A DNA stretch of 64,000 bases, taken from Flavobacterium rakeshii (GTDB taxonomy: Bacteria; Bacteroidota; Bacteroidia; Flavobacteriales; Flavobacteriaceae). The stretch covers positions 62,001 to 126,000 of the forward strand of contig NZ_WOWP01000001.1 in NCBI RefSeq assembly GCF_009741375.1. Reading direction: 5' to 3'. The position numbers were made by a program, and so were the translations under genes. This document shows positions 967 to 3,925 of this stretch, piece after piece; position 1 is the stretch's first letter; every line of letters starts with the position of its first letter. The notes beneath the pieces were generated by a model. That model saw only the letters and a program-made list of their open reading frames with translations, had not been told where the DNA came from and did no database searches.

Positions 967-1647
967 CTATCTGGTCAATACCTCATCAATCATCCCGAAG
1001 GCTTTGGCTTCCTCGGCGGTCATCCAGTAATCACGTTCGGCACTTTTATTAATGGTATCAAAATCTTTACCGCTATGGCGGGCAATTATACTGTACAGGT
1101 CTTCCTGCACTTTTAATACCTGACGTACGCTTATATCCATATCGGCTGCCGTACCCTGTGCCCCACCCGATGTTTGGTGTATCATGACTCTGGCATGCTG
1201 TAGTGCCGATCGTTTACCTTCGGCTCCTGCACACAACAGTACCGACCCCATTGAGAGTGCCACTCCGGTACAAATAGTAGCCACATCTGGCGTTATGTAC
1301 TGCATGGTGTCATAAATCCCGAAACCCGCATATACCGATCCGCCCGGGGAGTTGATATACAACTGTATGTCCTTTTTAGCATCCAGTGACTGTAAAAAGA
1401 GTAACTGTGCCTGTATAATATTGGCATTGCGTTCTTCCACCTGCTCGCCTAAAAAAATAATCCTGTCCATCATAAGCCTTGAAAAAACATCAAGCTGGGT
1501 AATATTAAGCTGGCGTTCTTCCATAATATAGGGTGTTAGCGCCGTAGGGCTGGCATAGCGCTGTGTATTGCTAATGTATTTGTCTACATACAGGCTGTTT
1601 ACCCTGTGGTGTTTTACGGCGTAATTGCGAAATTCTTTTGCGTTCAT
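967..1647 (-). CDS. clpP: ClpP-family serine protease subunit
   Basis: The proteolytic subunit of an ATP-dependent Clp protease, normally a 14-subunit cytoplasmic barrel fed by ClpX or ClpA-type unfoldases. At 226 residues it is slightly longer than usual because of an N-terminal extension of about 30 residues. The catalytic triad is intact: Ser132 in GVALSMGS, His157 in RVMIHQ, Asp206 in AERDYWM. The oxyanion segment NSPGGSVYAGF (99-109) is also present. No unfoldase (clpX) or trigger factor gene is beside it, unlike the usual housekeeping clpP locus. Instead it lies 92 bases downstream of an ECF sigma/anti-sigma-like pair in the same direction. This suggests a second, specialised ClpP, possibly co-transcribed with the sigma factor; that part is inference. 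Confidence 0.92.
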   Translation of the reverse strand: MNAKEFRNYAVKHHRVNSLYVDKYISNTQRYASPTALTPYIMEERQLNITQLDVFSRLMMDRIIFLGEQVEERNANIIQAQLLFLQSLDAKKDIQLYINSPGGSVYAGFGIYDTMQYITPDVATICTGVALSMGSVLLCAGAEGKRSALQHARVMIHQTSGGAQGTAADMDISVRQVLKVQEDLYSIIARHSGKDFDTINKSAERDYWMTAEEAKAFGMIDEVLTR

Positions 1648-1739
1648 AACTGTTCGTTTTTTGATTTGATTAAAGAATAACTATCCTGCCACCGCTATAG
1701 CACAGGGTGTTACTGATTGTGATTGTATTTTGTATTTGA

Positions 1740-2006
1740 TTATTTAAAGAAGCTAAATACCTTCTCCCTAAAGGAAACATATTTAGGAGCAGTAAAAACA
1801 TGATGGGCTACCTGTTCTACTTCGGCTTTAAGCTGTTGCCTGCCATACTGCTGTACTATGGCACGGGTTGTTTTTTGCCAGTGCAGGTTTTCTTTTAAAT
1901 CGGGTTCAAGCAGCAGGCGTGCTTCAAACAGTACTTTCTCTTCTCCGCTACATTCACCGTTGAGGTAACTGTCGGTTATAACCTTATTATTCCATGAAGT
2001 CTTCAT
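1740..2006 (-). CDS. Short cytoplasmic anti-sigma-like protein
   Basis: An 88-residue charged protein without a membrane helix or zinc-finger cysteine pattern. The N-terminal motif (DSYLNGECSGEEKVLFEARL, residues 12-31) resembles the N-terminal helix segment of Bacteroidota anti-sigma factors, which often read YLNGELS..E, and the C-terminus ends in a short amphipathic piece (FREKVFSFFK). Its start overlaps the 3' end of the sigma gene by 20 bases, so translation is probably coupled. Position and composition favour a soluble anti-sigma partner, but the family assignment is inference; it could be an unrelated small regulator. Confidence 0.55.
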   Translation of the reverse strand: MKTSWNNKVITDSYLNGECSGEEKVLFEARLLLEPDLKENLHWQKTTRAIVQQYGRQQLKAEVEQVAHHVFTAPKYVSFREKVFSFFK

Positions 2007-2514
2007 ACTGCAGCGATTTTTGTTTTACGGTTTCCTTTACTTTTTCCAGGCATTTGTGCTTTTGTACTGTAGCCGATCTACCTCCTGAAAAACCAAATCT
2101 TTGCGCCAGTCTTTCGGCATCCAGTTTTTCATAATAAAAAGCCGATAGCAAATCCATACATTTTTTACCGGTTGTACTAAGCAGGTGCATCAGTTTTGGA
2201 GTGGCAGCCTCCGTATAATCAGCCTCCGTATCGATAAAAGAGATATCCCCGTTGTACATTTTGGTCACCTCATCAAAGCGTTTACACCACAAATGTTTTG
2301 AGATCCCCATTATATAAGCCTGTTCGTTGTTAGGGACTTCCCTCCCGTTTTGAATGTGCTCCATATAAATAACAAGGGCATCATGAAAAACATCTTTAGC
2401 CTCACTTGGTGTCGCTCCCCTTTTTGCCACATAGCGTGCCACGGCGGGGAATGCTTTTATATATAAAGCCTCCAGTAATTCTGTACGCGATATTGTTGTA
2501 TTATTTATAGCCAT
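1987..2514 (-). CDS. ECF-type RNA polymerase sigma factor
   Basis: A 175-residue sigma-70 family protein of extracytoplasmic-function size. Region 2 is visible at about residues 12-90 (AFPAVARYVAKRG, then EAKDVFHDALVIYMEH, then AYIMGISKHLWCKRF). Region 4 is the C-terminal helix-turn-helix (LDAERLAQRFGFSG followed by RSATVQKHKCLEKVKE). It directs RNA polymerase to a small set of promoters. It leads a same-strand set: sigma, overlapping short anti-sigma-like gene, then clpP. The stimulus cannot be read from the sequence. Confidence 0.85.
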   Translation of the reverse strand: MAINNTTISRTELLEALYIKAFPAVARYVAKRGATPSEAKDVFHDALVIYMEHIQNGREVPNNEQAYIMGISKHLWCKRFDEVTKMYNGDISFIDTEADYTEAATPKLMHLLSTTGKKCMDLLSAFYYEKLDAERLAQRFGFSGGRSATVQKHKCLEKVKETVKQKSLQYEDFME

Positions 2515-2604
2515 ACTACATGGTGTTTATCTATATGTGCCAAAAGTGATGCAGGTATCACCATAAAAGTACTTCTTTTTTAAAAAGTATTTTACAAAAC
2601 CGAT

Positions 2605-2973
2605 TTAAAACCCGTTAGACCTTTCCTTTTGTGCCCACAGTGCCATAGCATCAATAACAGGCATGAGCCCTTTACCGGTTTTACTAAGGCTATAGGTTAC
2701 ATATGGCGGAACCACAGGCTTAGCCTTCCTGATTACGAGTCCGTCACCTTCCAGTTGTTTTAAATGCTGTATAAGCACCTTCTCTGTTATAGCAGGTATA
2801 GCCTTTCTTAGTTCGCTGTAGCGCTTAGGCCCCTGCGAAAGATGATAAATTATAATAGGCTTCCAATAGTTACCTATTTTTTCCATTACATAAGTTACAG
2901 GGCACGTTTCGAGCGCGTACTGTTTGTTTTCCTGTATTACCGAAGTTTCTTTAATCGCGGTCATATCATACAT
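2605..2973 (-). CDS. HxlR (DUF24) family transcriptional regulator
   Basis: A 122-residue winged-helix repressor or activator. The family signature is complete: Cys24-Pro in ETCPVTYVMEKIGNYWKP, then YSELRKAIPAITEKVLIQHL (recognition helix), then the wing ending VTYSLSKTGKGLMP. A conserved N-terminal Cys at this position is the thiol switch in quinone- and diamide-sensing DUF24 regulators such as Bacillus YodB, and it is present here. The gene is divergent from an NmrA-type oxidoreductase with an inverted repeat in the short gap, the classic layout for an HxlR regulator and its target. The start could also be the ATG at 2964. Redox sensing is inferred from the family. Confidence 0.9.
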   Translation of the reverse strand: MYDMTAIKETSVIQENKQYALETCPVTYVMEKIGNYWKPIIIYHLSQGPKRYSELRKAIPAITEKVLIQHLKQLEGDGLVIRKAKPVVPPYVTYSLSKTGKGLMPVIDAMALWAQKERSNGF

Positions 2974-2985
2974 ACTTTAGGGTAA

Positions 2986-3007
2986 GTACTTGTATAAAAG
3001 TAAGTAC
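2986..3007. promoter_or_regulatory. Probable HxlR operator between the divergent genes
   Basis: A perfect inverted repeat GTACTT-N10-AAGTAC. Its core TACTTGTATAAAAGTA fits the TACT-N7/8-AGTA form described for DUF24 regulators. It covers the -33 element of the oxidoreductase promoter. Near-identical 16-mers recur at 3975 and 11813. Confidence 0.6.
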
Positions 3008-3020
3008 AAATGTAACTTTG
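2990..3020 (+). promoter_or_regulatory. Bacteroidota-type promoter of the NmrA-like gene
   Basis: TTG at 2990-2992, 20 bases of spacer, then TAACTTTG at 3013-3020, a match to the -33/-7 consensus. It implies transcription from about 3027 and decides the start codon of the gene at 3047 rather than an upstream in-frame ATG at 2990. Confidence 0.75.
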
Positions 3021-3046
3021 TTTCAACAAATAAAAAAGTAAAAATC

Positions 3047-3925
3047 ATGAAAATAACAGTAACAGGATCAATAGGTAACGTAGCAAAACATATTGCAGAA
3101 ACACTTATTGCAAACGGTCACGATGTTAGCATAGTTAGCAGCAGTGCCGAAAGAAAACAGGATATTGAAAAACTTGGTGCTAAAGCTCTTATAGGCGGTA
3201 TTAACGATGCTGCCTTTTTAACCGATGCCTTTACAGGTGCCGATGCCGTTTTTGCCATGACCCCTCCTAACCTTGGTGGTGGTAATGTGGTGGAGAACAC
3301 AACCAATGCCGGTAAAACTTTGGCGGAAGCCATAGAAAAATCGGGGGTAAAAAGAGTGGTAATGCTAAGCAGTATAGGAGCTGATAAACCTAGCGGTAAC
3401 GGACCCATTGCAGCCCTACACCGCATTGAAGGTTTTTATAACCAGATACCAAATGTTAAGTTCACTTTTGTGAGGGCAGGTTTCTTTTACTATAACTACT
3501 TCAACGATATTCCGCTTATTAAAAATGCAGGTATACTGGGCTCTAACTATTCAGCAAGCACTGTCCTACCATTAGTACACCCTAAAGACATTGCAGCTGT
3601 AGCCGCTGAAGAACTGGTAAACCTAAACGGAGAAAGCAGTATTCGTTATGCTATTAGTGATGTGCGCACCACTCAGGAAGTGGCAAAAGCACTGGGTAAT
3701 GCTATAGGAAAACCAGAACTACCTTGGGTACCTTTTACAGATGAACAGCTTATTGAAGGAATGACACAGGCTGGGCTACCTGCCGATATTGCCGAAATGT
3801 ATACCGATATGGGTCGTGGTTTAAGCGACGGTAGTATACAGGAACATTTCCTGGCTACCACAGGCACTGCAAACGGCAAAATAAAACTGGAAGAATTTGC
3901 TACAGAGTTTGCTCTTAAATTTTAA
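3047..3925 (+). CDS. NmrA/NAD(P)H-quinone-oxidoreductase-like NAD(P)-binding protein
   Basis: A 292-residue atypical short-chain dehydrogenase of the NmrA family. Residues 1-30 form the Rossmann start (MKITVTGSIGNVAKHIAETL, with the glycine motif degenerate as TGSIGNV), followed by strand 2 ending VSSSAERK and the segment GADAVFAMTPPNLGGGN. Members reduce quinones or sense NAD(P) redox state. The ATG at 3047 is chosen because the upstream in-frame ATG at 2990 lies inside the promoter and would add 19 residues of promoter-encoded sequence. It is divergent from the HxlR regulator, which probably controls it. The substrate is unknown. Confidence 0.85.
   Translation: MKITVTGSIGNVAKHIAETLIANGHDVSIVSSSAERKQDIEKLGAKALIGGINDAAFLTDAFTGADAVFAMTPPNLGGGNVVENTTNAGKTLAEAIEKSGVKRVVMLSSIGADKPSGNGPIAALHRIEGFYNQIPNVKFTFVRAGFFYYNYFNDIPLIKNAGILGSNYSASTVLPLVHPKDIAAVAAEELVNLNGESSIRYAISDVRTTQEVAKALGNAIGKPELPWVPFTDEQLIEGMTQAGLPADIAEMYTDMGRGLSDGSIQEHFLATTGTANGKIKLEEFATEFALKF

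Follow-up and report, generated by a model that had tools for sequence, protein, structure and literature searches.

Several described systems place an ECF sigma factor under proteolytic control. In E. coli, the membrane anti-sigma factor RseA of RpoE is cut by a route that uses the HtrA-family protease DegS, and its degradation is finished by ClpXP, as outlined in PMC8103513. In the CalpL-CalpT-CalpS system, a protease, an anti-sigma factor and an ECF sigma factor form a three-part set, whose protease, CalpL, is of the Lon type, carries a SAVED domain and is associated with type III CRISPR, by the account in PMC11417357. For two groups of the ECF classification, ECF115 and ECF54, the predicted regulators are proteases with genes in the neighbourhood, with Clp named for ECF115; in the group descriptions of PMC8999054, the ECF115 example comes from Bacillus and the group carries a C-terminal extension of about 70 residues, and ECF54 appears without an anti-sigma factor and with CHAT, subtilase and carboxypeptidase neighbours. 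As for anti-sigma factors, the Dma anti-sigmas include one found with an ECF21 sigma factor, as presented in PMC13088901, and a class I domain lies near only 6% of Bacteroidota ECF sigmas by the figure given in PMC7406223.

We analyze a locus of Flavobacterium rakeshii (GCF_009741375.1) in which an ECF-type sigma factor gene, a gene for a short anti-sigma-like protein and a clpP gene form a trio. The window, that is, the whole stretch of 64,000 nucleotides that was analysed, spans positions 62,001-126,000 of contig NZ_WOWP01000001.1 on the forward strand. All three genes lie on its minus strand: the sigma factor (175 aa, without a C-terminal extension; 1987..2514) is recognized by its ORF, profiles, fold and tree position; the soluble anti-sigma-like protein (88 aa; 1740..2006) by its ORF, alignment and predicted fold; and the second ClpP of the genome, ClpP2 (226 aa, S/H/D triad intact; 967..1647), by Pfam and alignment. 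The first two ORFs overlap by 20 nt (1987-2006), and a spacer of 92 nt (1648..1739, minus strand), kept in four Flavobacterium genomes, leads to clpP2. This layout, an intact ClpP 92 nt beyond an overlapping sigma/88-aa pair on the same strand with no clpX beside it, is as the initial annotation had described it, and we found no clpX in the clpP2 locus. Further upstream of the sigma gene lie a divergent HxlR regulator and an NmrA-like gene (2605-3925), neighbours common to two other Flavobacterium loci (G153, G408) and not seen in the stretches examined for G024 and G214.

Each described system resembles the trio in part. The RpoE-RseA-DegS-RseP-ClpXP pathway likewise combines an ECF sigma, an anti-sigma and proteases of the HtrA and Clp families (PMC8103513), but RseA is a membrane-spanning protein that is cleaved stepwise, whereas the partner in the trio is predicted to be soluble and has clpP beside it. 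The CalpL system shares the three-part composition, and the scan of the neighbouring window genes turned up no CalpL-like gene. ECF115 and ECF54, as they are described, differ from the trio in that the latter has no extension on its 175-aa sigma, a soluble partner and a Bacteroidota host. Our searches of open-licence papers gave none that deals with the trio by title or abstract opening, and the accounts cited above do not describe it.

The sigma factor is, judging from its predicted fold, a divergent ECF sigma that curated models reach only below cut-off (Pfam Sigma70_r2, E 0.007; TIGR02937, E 0.003); a profile search with it gave SigL as the top match at E 0.08. Its predicted structure has a modest pLDDT of 66.9 and ends in the long helix of region 4. 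Against the PDB, 11 of the 12 best matches carry titles of ECF sigmas or sigma/anti-sigma complexes (best E 0.015, TM about 0.35), and the remaining one is a chain of an "RNA-guided transcription complex". The protein thus has what is expected of an ECF sigma: regions 2 and 4 only, an ECF-like size and the fold. The trio sigmas may correspond to a numbered ECF group of the main classification. A phage or plasmid origin was considered and rejected: searches with the sigma matched nothing in phages and, in plasmids, three distant sequences (22-32% identity).

The 88-aa partner matches no curated family above cut-off (zf-HC2, E 0.19). Zinc anti-sigma (ZAS) domains are marked by the motif Hx3Cx2C, and class I anti-sigma domains (ASDI) consist of a sigma4-binding helical bundle and a sigma2-binding helix; the ZAS motif is absent from the 88-aa protein, which has a single Cys. 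Its model (pLDDT 79.6) contains five helices, and seven of the 11 chains matched by Foldseek belong to anti-sigma complexes (5wuq, 3hug, 6in7), those with RsiW, RslA and MucA ranking at the top, although no single match is significant (best E 2.1); a structural comparison gave Z scores of 6.4-6.8, in a range (Z < 8) that can reflect a common helical arrangement. The protein is alignable with its counterparts in other trio loci, which are 88-100 aa long, and it resembles the N-terminal domain of membrane anti-sigma-like proteins at related loci, stopping before their membrane helix. The maximum 19-residue hydropathy is 0.09-1.16 in the short partners (n = 10) and 1.63-2.61 in HtrA-fused proteins (n = 29), and the short partners lack the membrane span of anti-sigmas subject to regulated intramembrane proteolysis (RseA type). 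An anti-sigma fold of the 88-aa protein is supported by the modelled structure but not proven.

ClpP forms a tetradecamer that works with a Clp ATPase, and the choice of substrate is the ATPase's rather than its own. ClpP2 is a full-length member of the family by profile (Pfam CLP_protease, E 1.3e-71), and the catalytic Ser, His and Asp are conserved in all 15 linked ClpPs aligned; the triads of three more from the later class draw were read by eye. The proposal of the initial annotation would have failed had this been the only clpP of the genome. A canonical tig-clpP-clpX locus is present on a different contig, and the ClpP of the trio is therefore a second one, identical to the genome's own ClpP1 at 60 of 70 residues in the stretches compared. 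The genome further encodes ClpX and two other proteins with Clp_N domains. Between clpP2 and its counterpart at L005, dN is 0.004 and dS 0.42, with dN/dS saturated or without a value for some other pairs. A third, distant match on the window's contig is a ClpP-like protein of 341 aa (L003:1408-2433), perhaps a phage head maturation protease. Another full-length ClpP is present in all 15 trio genomes checked, in 14 of them beside clpX. In the genome G689, the ClpP outside the trio (L161) has neither tig nor clpX in the stretch examined, and an Asn aligns at its catalytic Asp position. In G663, a tandem pair of clpP genes lies between tig and clpX (L169), so that the sigma-linked ClpP is the third.

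The order of sigma, short protein and ClpP, whose conservation the initial annotation had left to be checked, is kept in all 18 genomes found to carry the trio sigma group: five of the genus, three other named genomes, seven further genomes of the phylum and three from a later class draw. They belong to more than one class and to families f1, f17, f18, f23, f64, f73 and f101, with three genomes having no family code. Among 398 genus genomes, five have a sigma orthologue (E 5.3e-59 or better), followed by ten paralogue matches at E 8.9e-20 to 7.0e-11; the same five have the ClpP2 orthologue, in the same order (the ClpP of G276, 70% identical and above threshold, was left uncounted for its tree position among the genus's canonical ClpPs). 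When named genomes were scanned with the alignment of the sigmas, five loci came up, two from F. beibuense that are already among the genus five, and three others (two Mucilaginibacter and one Saprospiraceae) with the complete trio and other neighbours. Distribution is patchy, with the trio in 5/398 genus and 8/395 phylum genomes. In the class draw, also of 395 genomes, ten reached E <= 1e-33, of which three were new; picked by score before their neighbours were inspected, these had the trio in 3/3. As the profile was built from trio sigmas, the searches favour the trio sigma group.

The related sigma loci show how closely ClpP follows this group. In 395 phylum genomes, a sigma match at E <= 1e-15 was found in 59 genomes (82 rows; 80 places after removal of the window and one split row, each parsed by script). 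Adding the ten paralogues of the genus and the three named loci from outside it gave 93 parsed loci: ClpP was present in 10 and an HtrA fusion in 29, the N-domain had other C-termini in 35, different neighbours were found in 15 and none in 4. ClpP occurs only where the N-domain protein is short, and is absent from the 83 related loci outside the trio group, two of which lie on contigs that end too soon after the sigma gene to judge (L050 at 102 nt, L118 at 342 nt).

Most of the next-best-scoring sigma relatives are followed by one fused gene, whose product joins the N-terminal domain seen in the trio to a membrane helix and an HtrA-type protease (L052, L081-L084, L086-L092, L095, L097-L099, L101, L102, L104-L107, L109-L113, L117 and L160), an arrangement that is widespread in the Bacteroidota sampled. 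Our first count used full-length seeds, which also caught N-domains; the later count of 29 used a protease-only profile. By crude motif patterns, the catalytic Ser is present in 28/29, His in 23/29 and Asp in 27/29, and Pfam Trypsin_2 was found in both fusions scanned (L052, L081). These loci share with the trio a related sigma, a homologous N-domain in the next gene and an attached serine protease, but their protease is fused, membrane-anchored and presumably periplasmic, and the trio's promoter-like element GGTGATA is absent in 29/29. Our searches of open-licence papers turned up none on this arrangement.

In the window, the element reads GGTGATA-N16-CACATA (2534..2562, minus strand) and, by its conservation, is a putative autoregulatory ECF promoter upstream of sigma. 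GGTGATA is exact in 17 of 18 trio loci, the exception being GGTGATC in L219, and in most of them, from Flavobacterium to distant families, it is followed about 13-16 nt on by CAC(A/T)T; the two f23 loci keep GGTGATA without the CAC part. Between -150 and +90, GGTGATA occurs in 9/10 linked loci, 0/29 HtrA loci, 0/35 other N-domain loci and 3/19 remaining loci, with 0.025 expected. The tenth linked locus, L156, has it further in because the ORF start is over-extended, and in both L156 and L218 it falls within or just before such a start. Six of eight HtrA upstream regions printed have GGTTACT instead. At L050 (cut 102 nt after sigma), L100 and L119, GGTGATA lies upstream of related sigmas with neither an anti-sigma-like gene nor ClpP; those of L100 and L119 are followed, by eye, by thioredoxin-like genes.

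We searched five Flavobacterium genomes with the pattern GGTGATAN{13,16}CACWT and obtained 23 matches, of which five, one in each genome, lie just upstream of the trio sigma and the other 18 fall inside ORFs. A reversed pattern gave 13, so the pattern alone is not specific. No other intergenic copy of the searched element was found in these genomes, though looser variants could escape, and a wider regulon was set aside, the other sites all lying inside ORFs.

The initial annotation had taken the genes for one set, which a terminator or promoter ahead of clpP would have divided. Our scan of 1648-1739, which covered terminator-like and sigma-70-like sites and leaves Bacteroidota promoters outside its reach, found neither; the spacer does show conservation in its 3' part, where 68 of 79 aligned positions are identical between the window and L045, start codon included. 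The distance from the short gene to ClpP is 92-93 nt in four Flavobacterium genomes and 252 nt in G214, and 1-19 nt in 8/10 non-Flavobacterium loci of the first sets; the two f23 loci have 13 and 54 nt with an uncertain ClpP start. In the later draw, it is about 130 nt at L218, about 40 nt at L219 (uncertain start) and a 4-nt overlap at L220. Overall, it is within 20 nt in 10 of the 18 trio loci. The conserved 92-nt spacer and the longer ones of G214 and G1111 (about 130 nt) leave room for separate control of clpP2, which the Flavobacterium spacer may add. Two other accounts of the spacer were rejected: an RNA switch (the fold is no better than shuffles, z 0.29, with no Rfam match at gathering score) and inheritance with a tig-clpP copy, the tig-clpP spacer having an inverted repeat and a T run and differing by eye.

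Trees of the two proteins give different pictures. In quick sigma trees, one branch sets the ClpP-linked sigmas apart, with SH-aLRT 96 (15 rows) and 86 (18 rows; 96 for a set of 16 in this tree), and they need one label change. A branch likewise separates the HtrA-linked sigmas, with support dropping from 86 to 36 when 18 linked sigmas are used. Since six genomes (G512, G627, G781, G663, G579, G789) hold both kinds, the two are paralogues. In the careful ClpP trees, by contrast, the linked ClpPs form five groups and need five label changes, a count that gain and loss enter alike, on a tree in which some branches are long. A single clade of linked ClpPs is rejected (p-AU 5.3e-5 for 18 rows, 2.0e-4 for the 14 type A rows; the tree with the AU test is without the G663 tandem clpP copy). 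Four linked cases (G689, G803, G663, G1064) are of a short ClpP type, and the two linked ClpPs of family f23 lie among that family's clpX-linked ClpPs. Five groups and a rejected single clade indicate that ClpPs of different origin occupy the same place, and these sequence trees do not support a common history of sigma and ClpP. At nine positions, a residue common to at least three linked groups is absent from the 23 canonical rows compared; one case is a Leu in place of the Ala that precedes the catalytic Ser. Such convergent changes could be chance, and the comparison excluded the G663 tandem copy and the non-trio ClpP of G689.

What remains of the compact Clp-based switch proposed in the initial annotation is a conserved set in which a second ClpP accompanies an ECF sigma and its soluble anti-sigma-like partner, together with the fusion of the same N-domain to another protease at related loci; the five tree groups and the f23 cases speak against a ClpP dedicated to this sigma in the strict sense. 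The reading that we lean towards is that the trio is a self-contained cytosolic ECF switch that regulates itself and has ClpP among its recognisable outputs. The 88-aa protein would be the cognate soluble anti-sigma, produced in step with sigma through the 20-nt overlap. Free sigma would read its own GGTGATA promoter, raising sigma, anti-sigma and ClpP2 together, and ClpP2 would work together with ClpX, or with a different Clp ATPase of the cell. A cytosolic stress would titrate or destroy the anti-sigma, ClpP2 would raise Clp capacity, and Clp turnover of the anti-sigma, which is plausible, could feed back on the switch. Sigma/88-aa binding, autoregulation, co-transcription of clpP2, the ATPase partner, the signal and anti-sigma degradation are all steps that we infer. 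Since several ClpP groups, some near ordinary ClpP, fill the place, the trees suggest that what counts there is ClpP supply and not an enzyme with special properties. We consider it no less probable that sigma delivers ClpP as a product than that ClpP activates sigma, and an enzyme adapted to anti-sigma turnover seems unlikely.

More tentatively, the trio may represent a kind of cytosolic ECF circuit whose sigma has its own operon as main conserved target and in which ClpP supply is both output and feedback, with a cytosolic ClpP where relatives have a membrane HtrA, and with clpP exchanged more than once while the set stayed unbroken. By analogy, an HtrA protease fused to the N-domain or a ClpP alongside it may parallel RseA, which an HtrA-family protease cuts before ClpXP completes its degradation.

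The strongest rival, which we think rather improbable, makes ClpP2 with its ATPase a dedicated activator that destroys the 88-aa anti-sigma and frees sigma, with positive feedback giving an all-or-none response. Conservation of the trio and the protease fused to the same N-domain at related loci would suit it, and there are precedents in the anti-sigma FpvR20, whose degradation is completed only with ClpP present (as reported in PMC5733041), and in the RseA fragment degraded by ClpXP (as outlined in PMC8103513). It sits poorly with a place served by five ClpP tree groups, of which the f23 members group with clpX-linked ClpPs, with a host that already has ClpP and ClpX, and with the established point that ClpP itself does not pick substrates. 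A further alternative, to which we give little credence, is negative feedback in which ClpP2 removes sigma itself and ends the response, much as FtsH removes sigma-32 in E. coli. The conserved promoter-like element upstream of a set that ends with a protease gene would fit, as would AntA (ECF282), which is degraded by ClpXP according to PMC8999054, but the C-terminus of the trio sigma overlaps the next gene and lacks the di-alanine named for AntA. That ClpP was merely carried along with the sigma/anti-sigma pair, with no functional link, is very improbable: the patchy distribution among genus and phylum genomes would allow it, but ClpP co-occurs in every one of the 18 genomes, clpP2 dN/dS is low, several ClpP groups share one place against one sigma group, and the flanks of the trio differ between genomes.

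Bacteroidota have many ECF sigmas and few recognised anti-sigma partners, and the trio offers a compact unit of sigma, anti-sigma and protease whose promoter element can be recognised. Its persistence across distant Bacteroidota suggests an intracellular switch wired to protein degradation. The related loci amount to a natural experiment in which the protease varies (HtrA or ClpP) and the sigma/N-domain core stays. The trio could also explain the second clpP found away from clpX in some Bacteroidota, and through it, an extra ClpP as a regulated stress output becomes testable.

Similar N-domains were also seen in other company: at L056 (787-1500, 1-795), one occurs with TPRs beside a CHAT protein, and at L127:3197-5998, one is attached to a protein whose C-terminus matches TonB.
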